Source: Sporosarcina sp. Te-1 (GTDB taxonomy: Bacteria; Bacillota; Bacilli; Bacillales_A; Planococcaceae). Taken from it: a stretch of 64,000 nt of DNA. The stretch covers positions 4,203,501 through 4,267,500 of the forward strand of contig NZ_CP071798.1 of assembly GCF_017498505.1 (NCBI RefSeq). The letters run 5' to 3'. This document shows, piece after piece, positions 44,361-52,783 of this stretch (positions within the stretch are counted from its first letter, which is position 1; each line of letters opens with the position of its first letter). Made by a program: the position numbers and the translations under genes. The notes beneath the pieces are model-generated. The model was given only the letters and a program-made list of their open reading frames with translations. It was not told the origin of the DNA and ran no database searches.

Positions 44361-44370
44361 TCTATTATTA

Positions 44371-44387
44371 ACGACTATATAACGACA
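44371..44387 (+). promoter_or_regulatory. Direct-repeat operator, site 1
   Basis: ACGACTATATAACGACA: two ACGAC half-sites 11 bp apart, just after the NhaC promoter. The same motif with two changes is at 47204-47220, beside the regulator gene. Confidence 0.6.
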
Positions 44388-44427: not shown

Positions 44428-45888
44428 TTGGATAAGAAAAAAGATAAGAAAATCGGCTTTTTAATGGCCATCTTGCCACTCTTTATCATGATCATCGTTA
44501 TGCTCGTAACAGTGGTCAAATTGGAGCAGGGACCTCATATGCCTCTCATTGTGGGGACGACAGTGGCAGCTCTTGTTGCATGGCGCGCCGGCTACAGCTG
44601 GAAAGAGATTGAGGAAATGATGTACAAGGGTATCCGTTTGGCGTTGCCTGCGGTTGTCATCATTATGCTCGTTGGCCTTACAATCGGCGCTTGGATGGGC
44701 GGCGGTATTGTTGCTACCATGATTTATTATGGGCTGCAGATTATTTCGCCTTCGTGGTTTCTTGTTGCGATCGCCATCATTTGCGCCATCGTTTCTTTAG
44801 CCATCGGCAGCTCCTGGTCTACTATGGGAACAATCGGGGTTGCGGGGATGGGAATCGGCATGAGCATGGGAATACCGGCAGGCATGGTCGCCGGGGCCAT
44901 CATCTCAGGAGCGTATTTCGGGGATAAAATGTCACCCCTTTCAGATACAACCAACTTGTCATCGGGTTTAACAGGCACGGATTTGTTTGACCATATCAAG
45001 CATATGATGTATACGACCATACCAGGTTTACTCATCGCATTAGGCGTTTATGGCTTCATTGGAAGACGGTTTGCCGATGGAAATATGAAGTTGGAGGAGA
45101 TCGCCCAAACGGCAAGTGTATTAAAAGAAAGTTTTCTCATCTCCCCTTGGTTATTGCTCGTCCCATTGGCTGTTATTGTTCTCGTGGCGGCTAAAGTACC
45201 TGCCGTTCCCGCGTTGCTTATCGGAATTATTTTAGGTTTCATGTCTCATATATTCATTCAAGGAGGTACGGTCGCGAGCGCGTTAGGTGCTTTGCAAAGC
45301 GGGTTCTCCATTGAAACTGGCAATACGATGGTGGACAACCTTTTTAATGGCGGCGGTTTGGATAGTATGATGTACACCGTCTCCATGACCATTGTAGCGA
45401 TGACTTTTGGGGGAATCCTCGAGTATTCGGGTATGTTGCAAGCGATCATGAACCAATTATTGAAAGTGATCAAATCGACGTTCACCCTCATTTCATCTAC
45501 GATTGCTGCTTGTATCTTGACCAATGCGACTTGTTCGGAACAATATATTTCGATTGTTGTTCCATCAAGGATGTTTACTAAGGTATACAAGGATAAAGGA
45601 CTTCATTCCAAAAACCTATCAAGGGCATTGGAGGATGGAGGAACGCTTACTTCTGTATTCATACCATGGAATACATGTGGCGTTTTCATCTTGGGGACGC
45701 TCGGTGTAGGTGTCGTGGAATATGGGCCTTACGCCATCTTAAACTACGCAGTTCCGATTCTGTCGATCATCTTCGCAGCTACCGGTTTCTCCATCGTTAA
45801 AATGACGAAGGAAGAAATAGAGAAAGCAAAACAGGCGGAAGCAGATACAGCAGCGGAGGAAGAGAAAGAACTGCAATTGGAAAGTTGA
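44428..45888 (+). CDS. NhaC-family Na+/H+ antiporter-type transporter
   Basis: 486 residues, TTG start with TAGGGGGAAAG upstream, about 11 to 12 hydrophobic spans and the family block GAYFGDKMSPLSDTTNLSSG. NhaC members include Na+/H+ antiporters and malate/lactate-type exchangers such as MleN, so the cargo may be an organic acid or amino acid used by the downstream enzyme rather than protons alone. Acidic C-terminal tail. Shares an operator motif with the regulator/enzyme promoter 2.8 kb away. Confidence 0.88.
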   Translation: MDKKKDKKIGFLMAILPLFIMIIVMLVTVVKLEQGPHMPLIVGTTVAALVAWRAGYSWKEIEEMMYKGIRLALPAVVIIMLVGLTIGAWMGGGIVATMIYYGLQIISPSWFLVAIAIICAIVSLAIGSSWSTMGTIGVAGMGIGMSMGIPAGMVAGAIISGAYFGDKMSPLSDTTNLSSGLTGTDLFDHIKHMMYTTIPGLLIALGVYGFIGRRFADGNMKLEEIAQTASVLKESFLISPWLLLVPLAVIVLVAAKVPAVPALLIGIILGFMSHIFIQGGTVASALGALQSGFSIETGNTMVDNLFNGGGLDSMMYTVSMTIVAMTFGGILEYSGMLQAIMNQLLKVIKSTFTLISSTIAACILTNATCSEQYISIVVPSRMFTKVYKDKGLHSKNLSRALEDGGTLTSVFIPWNTCGVFILGTLGVGVVEYGPYAILNYAVPILSIIFAATGFSIVKMTKEEIEKAKQAEADTAAEEEKELQLES

Positions 45889-45910: not shown

Positions 45911-45945
45911 AAAGAGGAAAGTCCGCTAAGGACTTTCCTCTTTAC
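45911..45945. terminator. Bidirectional terminator
   Basis: AAAGAGGAAAGTCC / GGACTTTCCTCTTT hairpin between the convergent NhaC and regulator genes. Confidence 0.85.
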
Positions 45946-47183
45946 AATAATGGGAAATTCAATTCATATAACGTTCGTGGACGTCCTTGCTTGTAGGTCA
46001 TCTCCTCGCCGGCGATCCGAATATATCCGCACTCGCTCATCTTTTTAATAATCCGTTCTGCTGTGCGTCTCGTCACATTCATATAGGTCGCTAGGTCATT
46101 GGCCGAAAATTGCTTGGAATGACGGAACTTGCCGAACTGAATGATTTTCGAAATATTGGATGGACTTAATTTTGTTCTATCAGCTATTTTAAGCATAGCC
46201 GGATTCTTTAGTTGCATATCGATTATGCTGTCTGTTTTTTGAGGAAGGGGCCCCCGCAACTGTTTAAAACCATCCAATACATAAAATTGATCAGGATGGT
46301 TACTGAGAGATAACGCCTGCTCTGCATGTTGGGATGCCTCGACTGTCGACTCCCCGGCTCCGAATGCCAAATGAGCTTTGGTGGAGAGTTTTTGAAAGAG
46401 CTTCTGAAAGGAGGCAGTCCCCACAATCTTTTCTATGTTTCCCAGGGTAGTAAAAACGCTATGTCCATTTTCCGAGCCGGCTGCATGTCCATGAAGCATG
46501 TTAGCTAATTGGCTCACTTCATCATCTGCTGAATCGCCAGTCGATAAGGGACGGATCAAACCGACCGCGATTTGGGAAGACTTGCTGCGTGAGTAGAGGG
46601 CTTTCTGCTTTGCCTCTTCGATGGTGTGCAAGATATTGCTTTCTGGGTCAATCATTTTCATGGCAGGTACTTGATATTCAACAAGACGTTCATAGACAGC
46701 ATGGATACTTGTCACACCAATCACAGTTTTCCCGTCTCGGTAAAGGGCAGCATGAAAGTCTGTAATGGGGTCTATGGATTCGAGAGGGTTTATTGGATAA
46801 ATAAAGGGACCCTCCACGGAATGACTCAAGTCATTCAATACGTGCCTCATATGGATCGGATCTCGAATATCGATTGAAATAGCGTTCGGATGGATGTGTC
46901 TTGTTGTGGAAAGGAAAAGAAGAGTCATAGCAATCGCTGTTTCGTCTTGCTTCAAATAAACCGAGGGAATCTGCAGTTTCTCCAGTTCATCCAGCGCAAA
47001 TTGATAAGGCAAGGAGCCTGAAAAAAGAATCGCATCACAAGGGGTTACCGTGGCGACAATTCCTCTTGCTTCTTTTGGATGTTGATATATATACGGATTA
47101 AGGGATATATCCGAATGCGGGTCGAGCAGTCCGGCAGCCCGCTGACAAAAATCCTCCGATCCGATCATAGCAATTTTTATCAT
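45942..47183 (-). CDS. HTH transcriptional regulator of the NhaC/enolase-superfamily locus
   Basis: 413 residues. The N-terminal ~130 residues look like a Rossmann-type sensor with alternating strands, the middle section resembles a degenerate GGDEF-like domain (GVTSIHAVYERL, AHLAFGAGESTVEAS), and the last ~75 residues form a winged helix (SANDLATYMNVTRRTAERIIKKM) ending in a YKQGRPRTLYEL wing. I do not recognise a named family. ATG 47183 with AGGAGG upstream. It is divergent from the enzyme gene and next to operator site 2, which suggests it controls both units. Confidence 0.75.
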   Translation of the reverse strand: MIKIAMIGSEDFCQRAAGLLDPHSDISLNPYIYQHPKEARGIVATVTPCDAILFSGSLPYQFALDELEKLQIPSVYLKQDETAIAMTLLFLSTTRHIHPNAISIDIRDPIHMRHVLNDLSHSVEGPFIYPINPLESIDPITDFHAALYRDGKTVIGVTSIHAVYERLVEYQVPAMKMIDPESNILHTIEEAKQKALYSRSKSSQIAVGLIRPLSTGDSADDEVSQLANMLHGHAAGSENGHSVFTTLGNIEKIVGTASFQKLFQKLSTKAHLAFGAGESTVEASQHAEQALSLSNHPDQFYVLDGFKQLRGPLPQKTDSIIDMQLKNPAMLKIADRTKLSPSNISKIIQFGKFRHSKQFSANDLATYMNVTRRTAERIIKKMSECGYIRIAGEEMTYKQGRPRTLYELNFPLL

Positions 47184-47203
47184 AAAATCCTCCTGAATAT
47201 ATA

Positions 47204-47220
47204 GCGACTATTTAACGACA
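47204..47220 (+). promoter_or_regulatory. Direct-repeat operator, site 2
   Basis: GCGACTATTTAACGACA, 15 of 17 positions identical to site 1, in the 86-bp divergent gap between the regulator and the enzyme gene. Confidence 0.6.
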
Positions 47221-47269: not shown

Positions 47270-48379
47270 ATGAAAATTACAAGTATCGATCTATATGGTA
47301 TACACCTTCCATTGTACGAACCCTTTATCATCAGCTATGCAACTTATGATACAATGCCTTCCATCATCGTAAAAATTACGACGGATACGGGACATGTCGG
47401 CTATGGTGAAGGAGTGGCGGACGAGCATGTCACTGGAGAAAGCTGGGAGAGCACTTTTGCTGTCTTGCAACATACGCTGGCACCAAAGTTGATTGGCGAA
47501 AATCCAGCGAACTTTGAAAAGCTGCATGAATTGATGGACAAGGAAATCTATGGGGTACCTACAGCAAAAGCGGCAATTGACATCGCTTGTTACGACCTAG
47601 TAGGAAAAGCGCTTGGCGTACCGGTCTATCAACTGCTTGGTGGGCGCTACCATGATGAATTTCCGATTACCCATGTATTAAGTATCGCTTCGCCGGAGGA
47701 AATGGCTGATGAGGCAGAGAACCGAGTAACGGAAGGATACCGTTCGTTAAAAATGAAAGTGGGCACTGATATGCGGAAGGATGTCGAGCGGATCCAGTCT
47801 GTCCGTGAACGCGTTAGAGATGAAATTGCCATCCGAGTTGATGTGAACCAAGGATGGATAAACAGTGCCACCACATTGCAGGCGTTAACAAGGCTGGAGC
47901 AATGCGGATTGGACTGGTTGGAGCAGCCTGTTAAGGCGGATGACATTGACGGCATGGTGGAGATCAAATCCAAGACATCAGTGCCGGTCATGATCGACGA
48001 AGGGTTGCGTGGTTTTCGTGAAATGCGGGAGATTATTGCAAAAAGAGCCACGGATAAAGTGAATGTCAAATTGATGAAGTGCGGAGGAATTTATCCAGCG
48101 ATGAAGTTGGCTCATATGGCCGAAATGGCGGGCATCGAATGTCAAATCGGCTCGATGGTCGAATCATCAGTCGGATCGGCTGCCGGTTTCCATGTCGCAT
48201 TTTCAAAGCGCATGATAACGAGCGTAGAATTGACGGGCCCGTTGAAATTTAGCGAGGATATCGGGGATTTGAAATATGACGTGCCATTTATTCGATTAAC
48301 GGAACAACCGGGGTTAGGAATCCATGTAGATGAAAAGGTGTTGGAAAAATTGACGGTTATGACGGAGAAGATTTCATAA
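47270..48379 (+). CDS. Mandelate racemase / muconate lactonizing enzyme family protein
   Basis: Enolase-superfamily enzyme, 369 residues. General-base pair K-x-K in SLKMKVG, metal ligands Asp in RVDVNQG, Glu in LEQPV and Asp in MIDEG, and a second lysine in NVKLMKCGG: the muconate-lactonizing subgroup pattern. Close in outline to the dipeptide epimerase YkfB, but the D-x-D that holds the dipeptide amino group there is replaced by VELTGP, so that activity is unlikely. Racemisation or dehydration of an amino acid derivative is a better guess. Stop overlaps the GNAT start by 1 bp. Confidence 0.85.
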   Translation: MKITSIDLYGIHLPLYEPFIISYATYDTMPSIIVKITTDTGHVGYGEGVADEHVTGESWESTFAVLQHTLAPKLIGENPANFEKLHELMDKEIYGVPTAKAAIDIACYDLVGKALGVPVYQLLGGRYHDEFPITHVLSIASPEEMADEAENRVTEGYRSLKMKVGTDMRKDVERIQSVRERVRDEIAIRVDVNQGWINSATTLQALTRLEQCGLDWLEQPVKADDIDGMVEIKSKTSVPVMIDEGLRGFREMREIIAKRATDKVNVKLMKCGGIYPAMKLAHMAEMAGIECQIGSMVESSVGSAAGFHVAFSKRMITSVELTGPLKFSEDIGDLKYDVPFIRLTEQPGLGIHVDEKVLEKLTVMTEKIS

Positions 48380-49062
48380 TGAAACGACAGCTTACTTTGA
48401 AGAATGGTCAAATTGTTGAAATTCGCCCTGTCGGATTGGAACAGTTGAAAGAGATTTTATCGCTCCAACAGAAGGTGTTTTCCACGCTTTCAACAAAAAC
48501 GTTTCTTCAGCCGCTTACGGAGGAAGAGTTCGCCTACATTCTAGGTGGCAAAGGTGTTATGCTCGGTGTTTATCTACGAGGGGAGCTGATTGCATTTCGT
48601 GCCATGATGGAACCGGATGAATTGGATGATGAGCATCTTGGATTGGATGCAGGGCTTACGAAAGAAGAATTCTCAACTGTACTTTATTCCGAAATCACAA
48701 ATGTGCACCCCGATTATAGAGGAAACAGCTTACAGCGGATTTTGGGCCGTATGCTGCTTGCTGAAATTGACCAGGAAAAGTACCGGTATATCTGTACCAC
48801 GGTTGCCCCCTTCAACATTGCGAGTTTGAAAGATAAATTCAATTTGGGGATGCATATCGTGGCTTTAAAAGAAAAGTACGGAACGAAGCTTCGTTATATA
48901 TTAATGAAGGATTTAACAGCTAGGCCAGTATACCGCGCTGCTTCCGTCTTCATTCATATGGGGAATACGGAACGCCAGCAAGAGTTGCTCGAGAAGGGCT
49001 GGGTCGGAGTCGGCATGGTGATGGAAGAAGATGAATGGAAAGTGGAATATCGGAAATTTTAA
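48379..49062 (+). CDS. GNAT-family acyltransferase-like protein
   Basis: 227 residues; a GNAT core with EITNVHPDYRGNSLQRILGRMLL as the acyl-CoA site and TTVAPFNIASLKDKFNLGMH after it, plus a long acidic insertion (DELDDEHLGLDAGLTKEE). Translationally coupled to the enolase-superfamily gene (TAATG), so it very likely acts on the same substrate. A terminator-like hairpin follows the stop. Confidence 0.82.
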   Translation: MKRQLTLKNGQIVEIRPVGLEQLKEILSLQQKVFSTLSTKTFLQPLTEEEFAYILGGKGVMLGVYLRGELIAFRAMMEPDELDDEHLGLDAGLTKEEFSTVLYSEITNVHPDYRGNSLQRILGRMLLAEIDQEKYRYICTTVAPFNIASLKDKFNLGMHIVALKEKYGTKLRYILMKDLTARPVYRAASVFIHMGNTERQQELLEKGWVGVGMVMEEDEWKVEYRKF

Positions 49063-49101
49063 AAGAGGACGGCTTTCATCAAAAGATGAAAGCTATTTTT
49101 A
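49062..49101 (+). terminator. Weak terminator after GNAT gene
   Basis: GGCTTTCATC / GATGAAAGCT hairpin followed by ATTTTT. Confidence 0.65.
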
Positions 49102-49205: not shown

Positions 49206-50894
49206 ATGAAACATACAGTAGGTAAAAAGATTTGGTTCGGTTTCCTCTCCGTTTTACTCATTATGATTGTCATCGGAGCCTCAAGTTTATGGTCGCTATT
49301 CAAGGTGAGCGATGAATATCGTTTTCTAATAGATGATCGGATGAAGAAGATCGTACTTTTGGAAGAACTTTCTGCAAATCAAAACGAAATATCGAATAAT
49401 ATTCGCGGTTACATGCTCTATAAGGAACCGAGGTTGTTGGAAGACCGGGAACAATTAAACAAAGAGGCTAATCAACTGTTGGAAGAGCTTGATTCCCTTG
49501 TGAAAAGTGAAAGTGCAAGTAAGATATTAGCAGATGTAATAGATCGTATCAGTACACATGAAAGCATGACCGGGTTCATTTTGGAAGAATTTCAGAAAGG
49601 AAACGAAAAAGATGCCATTGGTCAAGCCTATGAAGCAACCGGGCAGCTGAAAAAAGCGAAAGATGGAATCGATCAATTAATTGAGCATCAAAATAATCAA
49701 CGGGATAAAACAGAAAAGGATTTACATAATGTACTTCTAATGACTCGCATATTGACCATTGGTCTCATAGCGGTCGCTATTGTTGGCAGCATTATAGTTG
49801 CACGTGTCATCAGTAATAGTATTGCAAGGCCTGTGGCGGCATTAACAACAGTCATCAAACAAATGGCGGATGGAAATTTTTCATCAGAGCCAATCCAAAT
49901 CAAAAATAAGGATGAAATCGGTGAAATGGCGTCTGCTTTTAATGTGATGGCAAGTGATATCCGACATATCATCTCACACACGAGGGAAACGGCAGTTCAA
50001 CTGGCGGTTCAAGCGGAAGAACTGTCAGCCAGTTCCGAAGAGAGCTTGGCTGCATCCGAAATGGTGGCAGAAATTGCTGAGAAAAATATTATGGCGAGCG
50101 ATGCGCAAGTCGCTATTGTTCAAGAGTCGAATGCTTCTATGAAAGAGATGGAGGCAGGCATCGACCGGATTACGGAAGAAAATGATCATATGTTAAAATC
50201 CACGGGAGAGGTGACTCACTTAGTCTCGGACGGAGCGTCTCTTATGACAGAATTCACTGTTCAAATGAAATCGATCAACCAGACGATGGAAGAGTCCGTT
50301 CAGACGATCTCCGAAATGGCTTCACAATCGGAGCAGATCCGCAGCGTCACTTCGTTGATTACTGCGATTGCGGAGCAAACCAATTTGCTTGCGCTGAATG
50401 CAGCCATTGAGGCCGCAAGAGCCGGTGAACACGGAAAAGGGTTTGCCGTTGTGGCAGAGGAAGTACGCAACTTGGCTGAGCAATCAAAACAATCTGCTGA
50501 GGAGATTGGCAGAATGGTAGAAACCATGATCCAAAATGTTAACAACGCAGTAGCGAGAACAGAGGATGGCAGCCGACGGGTTGCCGATGGTTTAACGGTC
50601 ACCGGTAAGACGAACGAAGTATTTGAACAGATTGAAAAGGCAGCAGTGGAAGTAGCTGATAAGGTGAACAATGTGTCAGCAGCGATTGTGCAAATGACTT
50701 CCATGGTGAACGAGGTAGCAACTGGAGCTGCGGAAGTGGAGAAATTGGCTGTCAAAGGGGCAGCAGAGGCACAATCCACTAGTGCGGCGACGGAACAACA
50801 ACTGGCTGCCAATCAAGAAATTTCATCCAGCTCTCAACAGCTGGCCACGCTGGCTGAAAAACTGCAAAGTGATCTTTCGAAATTCACTGTGTAA
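49206..50894 (+). CDS. Methyl-accepting chemotaxis protein (4HB sensor), MCP 1
   Basis: 562 residues: transmembrane helix at 10-30, an extracytoplasmic four-helix-bundle sensor (to about 175), second helix at about 180-200, HAMP domain, then the coiled signalling domain with the invariant hairpin tip [23 protein letters not shown] split around residue 390 and [12 protein letters not shown]. Ligand unknown. ATG 49206 with AAGGAGTCAG upstream. Lies directly after the enzyme locus; the signal could be that substrate, which is only a guess. Confidence 0.93.
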   Translation: MKHTVGKKIWFGFLSVLLIMIVIGASSLWSLFKVSDEYRFLIDDRMKKIVLLEELSANQNEISNNIRGYMLYKEPRLLEDREQLNKEANQLLEELDSLVKSESASKILADVIDRISTHESMTGFILEEFQKGNEKDAIGQAYEATGQLKKAKDGIDQLIEHQNNQRDKTEKDLHNVLLMTRILTIGLIAVAIVGSIIVARVISNSIARPVAALTTVIKQMADGNFSSEPIQIKNKDEIGEMASAFNVMASDIRHIISHTRETAVQLAVQAEELSASSEESLAASEMVAEIAEKNIMASDAQVAIVQESNASMKEMEAGIDRITEENDHMLKSTGEVTHLVSDGASLMTEFTVQMKSINQTMEESVQTISEMASQSEQIRSVTSLITAIAEQTNLLALNAAIEAARAGEHGKGFAVVAEEVRNLAEQSKQSAEEIGRMVETMIQNVNNAVARTEDGSRRVADGLTVTGKTNEVFEQIEKAAVEVADKVNNVSAAIVQMTSMVNEVATGAAEVEKLAVKGAAEAQSTSAATEQQLAANQEISSSSQQLATLAEKLQSDLSKFTV

Positions 50895-51094: not shown

Positions 51095-52783
51095 ATGAAA
51101 TTTTCTGTTAGCAAAAAAATGTGGGCGGGGTTCCTTGGGTTAGTCTTGTTACTTATTGTCTCAGGTGTACTGAACTATTTAACCATCCCCGATATTAAAC
51201 AGAGATACACGTATTTAATTGACGATCGGTTGGAAAATGTGATAACTCTAGAACAGCTGGCAACCAACCAAAACGAAATTTCCAATGATCTGCGAGGATA
51301 TTTACTATATAAACAAGTCAATTACTTGAAAGACCGTCGGGAGTTACTGGGAAATTTTAACATGTCCATTGAGAGGTTGGCTGCTAATTTTGACGATGAG
51401 ACGGCGCAAGCATTATTGCAAGAAATCAAAGTCGCAGCAGCAAACTATGAAGAATTGACTGCGGGGGCGATCAGTGCATTTCATAATGGCGACAACGATG
51501 AAGCACTACGGCAAGCGGGTAAAGCGGAACCGTATCAGTCACTCATATCTGAGAAAGCGAAGGAGTTAATAAACTATCAAAGGGAACAAGTAGAGACGAC
51601 TCAAAAACAGTTGGATAAGCGGCTGCAAGTGACTGGTTTTTTCATATTGGGAGTTATTGTGGCAGCCACTGTAATAAGTATTGTGATCGCAACAGTCATT
51701 AGCCGAAGCATCACGAGACCGGTTAGAAAGGTGACAACTTCACTAAAACAGCTTGCTTCCGGCGATTTTTCAATGGAACCGCTCCGCATCAAAAACAGGG
51801 ATGAAATTGGTGAAATGGCGGATGCCTTCAATGAGATGGCAGCTGATCTAAGGGCTATAATCGGCTCGACCCGCCAGACTGCACATGAGTTAGCTGCCCA
51901 GGCAGAGGAATTATCCGCAAGTTCCGAAGAAAACCTGGCCGCTTCTGAAATGGTGGCGGAAATTGCTGAAAAGAACTTGATTTCCAGTGATATGCAAACA
52001 AATCTCGTGACAGAATCCGTTTCGGCAATGTCAGAAATGACGGAAGGTATAAACCAAATCACCAACCATAATGATGCAATGCTCACATCGTCTGAACAGG
52101 TGACTCTTCTAGTGGAGGATGGGTCAGCGCTCATGAAAGAAGTAACAGATCAGATGTCTACCATTTCCCTGTCCATTCAGGAATCAGCACATGTTATAAG
52201 CCAGTTGGCCGAGCACTCTGAAAATATTCGCCAAGTGACTCATCTCATTACGGATATCGCGGAGCAAACGAACTTATTGGCATTGAATGCGGCAATCGAG
52301 GCGGCACGTGCAGGCGAACATGGGAAAGGTTTCGCTGTTGTCGCAGATGAAGTTAGGAACTTGGCTGAGCAGTCTAAACAATCCGCGACAAATATTGGCC
52401 GCATGATTGAAACAATCATTAACAATGTTGCATTGGCAGTGGGAAGTACCGAGGCAGGAACAGAGAAAATACAAGAAGGGTTGGGCATTACAGTGCGGAC
52501 AAGTCGTGTCTTTATAGAGATTGAAGGTGCAGTAACGGAAGTCAAAGAGAAGGTACAATCAGTATCCGCTGCTATACTGCAAATTCAGCAGATGACAGAA
52601 CAGGTGCAAGAGGGAGCTGCCAAAGTGCAGGAGTTGGCTGCCCAAAGTGCGGCTGAAGCACAATCGACAAGCGCTGCGACAGAAGAGCAGCTAGCTTCCA
52701 ATGAAGAAATCTCTTCCAGCGCCCAATCCCTTTCAGAAGCGGCGGAAAAGCTGCAAAGTGAAATGGCTCGATTTACAATATAA
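51095..52783 (+). CDS. Methyl-accepting chemotaxis protein (4HB sensor), MCP 2
   Basis: 562 residues, same length and domain order as MCP 1: helix near residues 12-30, four-helix sensor, second helix at about 178-200, HAMP, signalling domain with [18 protein letters not shown]. The sensor domain differs clearly from MCP 1 while the signalling half is nearly the same, as after tandem duplication followed by ligand divergence. ATG 51095 with TTAGGAGGATAC upstream. Confidence 0.93.

Follow-up and report, generated by a model that had tools for sequence, protein, structure and literature searches.

The locus analyzed here recalls a D- to L-amino acid pathway composed of NSAR, a succinyltransferase and a desuccinylase, reportedly described by Sakai et al. 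in 2006, a work cited in PMC8762209. Its racemase resembles that of Bacillus cereus, a textbook case of docking-based function assignment, whose Arg/Lys racemase activity is said to have been confirmed by experiment by Song et al. in 2007 and for which we know of no pathway. In excerpts of the literature, the enzyme of B. cereus ATCC 14579 is predicted as an N-succinyl arginine racemase (PMC4372640), and NSAR/L-succinylase pairs are described (PMC7431475). The window, the whole stretch of 64,000 nucleotides of Sporosarcina sp. Te-1 DNA that was analyzed, contains the gene of an enolase superfamily racemase of 369 aa (47270..48379, + strand) and, overlapping it, that of a predicted GNAT-fold acyltransferase of 227 aa (48379..49062, + strand). 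An earlier note on this DNA saw in the two an echo of the N-succinylamino acid route, and the logic is indeed the same: relatives of the locus add an M20 hydrolase and thus unite N-acyltransferase, N-acylamino acid racemase and deacylase in one cluster, while the window locus holds only the first two and candidates for the deacylase lie elsewhere. It differs from the NSAR pathway in that the racemase comes from another clade (26% identity to Te-1’s own NSAR-type enzyme), in its regulator and transporter, and in the missing M20 gene at the Sporosarcina locus. We consider it reasonably probable that the locus serves the regulated use of basic D-amino acids, with D-lysine, D-arginine or both as the likeliest substrates.

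Judged by its sequence, the racemase belongs to an already characterised kind and is not a new enzyme type. Its top PDB sequence match, at 589 bits, is 2p88/2p8b/2p8c, which we take to be the B. cereus N-succinyl-Arg/Lys racemase; the PDB itself titles 2p88 no more precisely than ‘Mandelate racemase/muconate lactonizing enzyme family protein’. Next comes the B. subtilis epimerase 1jpm with 259 bits. Alignment with 2p88 is gap-free with 255 of 366 residues identical (69.7%), the motif VELTGP and the catalytic residues are common to both, and in a tree of 36 rows 2p88 falls into a 21-row clade (support 99/99) together with the window racemase and 17 other GNAT-adjacent racemases. Paralogues, including the second racemase of Te-1 (59% identity), stand outside this clade, and the long branches flagged by the tree program lie elsewhere in the tree. 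Clustering with a characterised family is what the earlier note had named as speaking against its reading; the score to 2p88 and the shared clade rule out a new family. In this comparison, which covered the B. cereus protein itself, the Sporosarcina gene comes with an attached GNAT gene, regulator, operator-like site and transporter. An identity of 70% to 2p88 does not fix the specificity of the window racemase, which is here predicted from sequence.

The active site agrees with this assignment. K161, K163, D191, E218, D243, K267 and E320-L-T-G-P are invariant in all 100 aligned racemase-type homologues, which were taken from the fetched loci and include the window protein, and the catalytic lysines and metal ligands are therefore intact, as had been claimed; an excerpt of PMC8142540 names the Lys pair as the catalytic bases of this enzyme class. 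Also confirmed is the replacement of the D-x-D of dipeptide epimerases: VELTGP (residues 319-324) occupies the position at which both PDB 1jpm and Te-1’s own YkfB-like gene have DFD in the alignment. The name to be expected from most automatic annotation is nevertheless that of a dipeptide epimerase, here a YkfB-like one with a changed binding motif, and the second-best PDB matches, 1jpm and 3jva (244 bits), are such enzymes. We regard this identity as hardly tenable, and in effect ruled out, given that the motif is E-x-T (E320-L-T322) in 100 of 100 members of the clade, that a separate Te-1 gene with DFD matches 1jpm at 466 bits, that the enzyme clusters elsewhere, and that no peptidase or peptide transporter gene is present at the locus. 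All 100 clade sequences likewise share D51 and H53, which are absent from 1jpm and from Te-1’s own NSAR-type enzyme in the alignment, a pattern consistent with a side-chain pocket that has been kept.

Other family models score the racemase below their thresholds. The low-GC menC/NSAR model TIGR01928 gives it 126 bits (cut-off 200.65) versus 386 bits for Te-1’s own L005, and the tree places it on a branch separate from Te-1’s own NSAR-type genes. The cis-3-hydroxyproline dehydratase model gives only 175 bits against a cut-off of 500, which rules out that enzyme and leaves the hydroxyproline derivatives suggested earlier as substrates without indication.

Coupling of the GNAT protein to the racemase, also proposed from the sequence, is borne out. 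The stop of the racemase gene and the start of the GNAT gene overlap by one base (TAATG), and GGAGAAG ends 8 nt before the second ATG. Pfam gave no GNAT match to the window protein at E<=0.1, its score lying under the Acetyltransf gathering score, and Acetyltransf_1 was matched weakly by 8 of 28 relatives, the best of the 28 at 0.0025-0.0032. A search of the PDB by sequence returned nothing but one chance match (E 0.74). The AlphaFold2 model built from 28 sequences (pLDDT 92.2) confidently predicts a GNAT fold: residues 12-179 match it with a Foldseek E of 2.9e-9, and the top VIA row has a Z of 16.1 at 2.4 A over 153 residues, the absence of a fold family from the VIA lists proving nothing. 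Beyond this fold, the model has a C-terminal strand-helix-strand-strand extension.

The fold neighbours of the GNAT model are mostly acetyltransferases, which says little about the acyl donor. They would fit a pathway of the same type that differs in its acyl group or in the side chain: the GNAT protein would be an N-acetyltransferase, and the racemase would act on N-acetyl or, broadly, on N-acyl amino acids, including those that are not basic. Two points weigh against it, namely that the characterised member of the clade is reportedly specific for N-succinyl-Arg/Lys and that D51/H53 distinguish the clade from 1jpm and the NSAR-type enzyme. In its favor, an excerpt of PMC7431475 states that NSAR-type enzymes accept many N-acyl groups; overall, we think this version unlikely, if worth keeping in mind next to the use of basic D-amino acids that we prefer.

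Scanning contigs with the single GNAT protein did not find relatives; an alignment-based search found 304, of which the best 80 were retained as 80 named loci. Among these best 80 by GNAT similarity, a racemase lies directly upstream in 66 and not in 11, and the GNAT ORF was not recovered in 3. Within the host’s family, 257 genomes out of 261 encode the GNAT family. In 398 evenly drawn Bacilli genomes, racemases occur at E<=1e-100 in 92 and the GNAT protein at E<=1e-20 in 73. Of the 398, 46 (24 from the host’s family, 22 from five others) have a racemase of 60% identity or more, and all 46 carry the GNAT gene, 45 of them directly downstream. Where only more distant racemases are present (46 genomes), the GNAT protein occurs in 18 and is adjacent in none; 9 further genomes have the GNAT protein and no racemase at E<=1e-100. 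From these counts, the GNAT protein accompanies this racemase clade without being confined to it. Since 28 of the 73 GNAT-bearing genomes lack an adjacent racemase, it may have another or a wider job.

Several loci illustrate the surroundings of the gene. When no racemase is present (L093, L099, L100), the GNAT gene adjoins a P-loop protein of 173-180 residues and MurE-like and FumC-like genes. At L110 (7825-10029) and L227, an NhaC-type gene directly precedes the GNAT gene, and neither between the two nor next to them is there a racemase; this arrangement links the transporter to the GNAT protein. The record of L227 is labelled Roseburia and looks like a case of mislabelling similar to that of Arthrobacter beigongshangensis REN13 (L154), a probably mislabelled record with a Sporosarcina-like locus and the same flanking genes. 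Just downstream of the pair in the window are two related chemoreceptor (MCP) genes (49206-50894 and 51095-52783), and one or both stay beside the pair in many Sporosarcina genomes.

Upstream of the pair lies the gene of an NhaC-family transporter of 486 aa (44428..45888, + strand), which scores 464.5 bits with the NCBIfam NhaC model TIGR00931 (cut-off 370) and keeps its place in relatives. The arginine/ornithine antiporter model ArcD matches it over its whole length with 374.5 bits (cut-off 650), and ‘basic amino acid antiporter YfcC’ is, beside ArcD, a neighbouring model of the transporters. It is from these two models and from the characterised clade member that basic substrates are suggested. 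The NhaC-family protein probably serves the system as its importer or exchanger, although plain Na+/H+ antiport can also be a function of NhaC proteins. Its gene is outside the racemase-GNAT operon, the regulator gene on the opposite strand standing between them.

The regulator (413 aa; 45942..47183, - strand) is divergent from racemase-GNAT and convergent with nhaC. Its model (pLDDT 85.3, pTM 0.60) comprises a PrpR_N-like sensor fold in residues 1-199, a middle region and a C-terminal winged helix-turn-helix, for which Pfam names HTH_11. VIA matches the N-terminal part to 2q5c with Z 17.0 and to PrpR (2pju) with Z 15.7, and the C-terminus to the winged helix of 6cmv with Z 9.1; Pfam PrpR_N is found weakly in 11 of 23 regulator relatives and is absent from the window protein. 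Any likeness to PrpR is that of the predicted fold of the N-terminal 199 residues. PrpR carries AAA+/Fis parts, whereas the Sporosarcina regulator has a C-terminal winged helix.

Both units share an upstream site, TARCGAC-NNTN-TARCGAC, a direct repeat with 11-bp spacing that is conserved in relatives. One copy, TAACGACTATATAACGAC (44369..44386, + strand), precedes the NhaC-type gene, and the other, TAGCGACTATTTAACGAC (47202..47219, + strand), lies before the racemase-GNAT unit and the divergent regulator gene. With at most one mismatch, the narrow pattern NCGACTATNTAACGACA occurs in the Te-1 genome at just these two places (reversed-pattern control, 1), and a looser pattern adds one 1-mismatch place (control, 2 matches). 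A search of 68 Sporosarcina genomes gave exact matches in 43 of them; these number 54 and all stand on the upstream side of the racemase, 42 no more than 100 bp from it and 12 near nhaC. Allowing one mismatch yields 113 matches versus 130 for the reversed control, so that the count alone proves nothing; of these 113, however, 87 stand no more than 6 kb upstream of the racemase, and only its exactness and position distinguish the site. In 61 fetched neighbourhoods from several families, 37 matches were found and none in five shuffles of each, and the 37 mostly precede nhaC, racemase or YfcC genes. Among the best 80 of 304 loci, 40 have the regulator, and 38 of these carry the site, as against none of the 40 without it, a contrast inflated by shared descent; the two regulator-bearing loci from which it is absent are L193 and L228. 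When the regions upstream of nhaC and of the racemase were compared in 18 loci without a target pattern, the repeat was the top shared word at about half of the loci, though at L073 it did no better than the best of 12 shuffles; the remaining loci gave other words at shuffle level. The regulator presumably binds the 11-bp repeat, and the joint control of the racemase-GNAT unit and the NhaC-type gene that the earlier note had asserted is supported.

Terminator-like hairpins follow the GNAT gene (49071..49094, + strand) and lie between the convergent nhaC and regulator genes (45911..45943, - strand, 14 pairs). These calls are weak because they come from a pattern scan only, in which 3 terminator-like sites were found versus 4.6 expected in shuffles and in which shuffled sequence gave consensus promoters and terminators at least as often.

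The absence of a deacylase near the pair had been taken as a hint of a new pathway. The observation itself stands for the window, whose 64,000 nt contain no M20-like gene; Te-1 has 14 M20-like places, all elsewhere in the genome. It does not extend beyond Sporosarcina. Among the 66 loci of the best 80 of 304 that have the pair, 23 of the 29 non-Sporosarcina ones have an M20 hydrolase gene no farther than 8 kb away, as against none of the 37 labelled Sporosarcina, and of the six non-Sporosarcina loci without it, one is from Filibacter and one is the Arthrobacter-labelled record resembling Sporosarcina. In picked neighbourhoods, the order M20-racemase-GNAT is uninterrupted in L081, L082 and L088, and M20, nhaC, regulator (reverse), racemase and GNAT follow one another in L079, L080, L085, L086, L089, L090 and L092, as well as in L133, L134, L135, L143 and L145 from other families. 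A system with no deacylase is thereby ruled out beyond Sporosarcina, and with M20 genes also at two other Te-1 racemase loci, the conclusion that the pathway may be new does not hold.

The persistence of the GNAT protein where no racemase adjoins it, at L100 in a row of genes that includes a MurE-like one, and the lack of a hydrolase at the Sporosarcina loci would also suit a pair that works towards D-amino acids, either N-acyl-D or free D forms for instance for the cell wall or signalling, or a GNAT protein that detoxifies an imported amino acid while the racemase only widens its range. We judge this quite improbable, as the M20 partner of the relatives matches TIGR01891 with 247 bits and so belongs to the general aminoacylase/amidohydrolase type. 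Known members of this type are mostly L-specific, and for this reason the direction from D to L is favored.

The M20 protein of Te-1 that best matches the cluster M20 of a relative is 48% identical to it (the next reaches 30%), and its gene overlaps that of an NSAR-type racemase. Another overlaps racemase 2; next to it are a YfcC-type transporter and the one further member of the regulator’s family in the genome. This unit of regulator, YfcC-type transporter, M20 hydrolase and 59% racemase (L009; 1861000-1875000, therein 6104-11263) is probably in the same regulon as the window locus. The operator-like site is absent from it at up to one mismatch and occurs once with two, 24 bp upstream of an ATG inside the YfcC ORF. 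The NSAR-type locus (L012; 1816000-1826000, therein 1331-5937), with its racemase overlapping M20, an RpiR-like regulator and a YfcC-type transporter, is a classical N-acylamino acid racemase locus.

Gene order, overlap, clade, folds, conserved linkage and conserved site are findings of this analysis. For the use of basic D-amino acids, we infer the substrates, the acyl donor, the D to L direction and the binding of the site by this regulator as follows. The NhaC-family protein would import or exchange a basic D-amino acid, whose alpha-amino group the GNAT protein would acylate, probably from succinyl-CoA. The racemase would then turn N-acyl-D into N-acyl-L forms and back, K163 and K267 carrying out a 1,1-proton transfer on a metal-bound enolate, and the M20 hydrolase would free the L-amino acid. 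This last step is an assumption at the Sporosarcina loci, since none of the 37 has M20 within 8 kb; the enzyme would be supplied from another locus, either the unit of regulator, M20 and racemase 2 or the NSAR-type one. The PrpR_N-like/winged-helix regulator, by binding the repeat before nhaC and before racemase-GNAT, would tie both units together.

More tentatively, and as a picture that we find possible but somewhat short of probable, the locus could represent a widespread and so far undescribed D-lysine/D-arginine salvage system of Bacilli. The new GNAT family would act as an N-succinyltransferase selective for D forms, in obligate partnership with the Arg/Lys-type racemase, and an M20 desuccinylase and an NhaC-family importer would complete the set. 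All of it would be under a PrpR_N-winged-helix regulator whose signal is the D-amino acid or its N-acyl form and whose target is the 11-bp repeat, with the paralogous unit of regulator 2, YfcC, M20 and racemase 2 in the same regulon.

The pathway logic and the racemase clade are already known; the GNAT family, the regulator and the site are apparently undescribed, and a description of the surrounding gene set was not found in the open-access literature searched. Our results caution against ‘dipeptide epimerase’ as a name for this racemase clade. The conserved partners, GNAT protein, M20 hydrolase, transporter, regulator and operator, would give the B. cereus-type racemase a testable pathway, and they bear on the bacterial fate of the D-lysine and D-arginine released by other bacteria.
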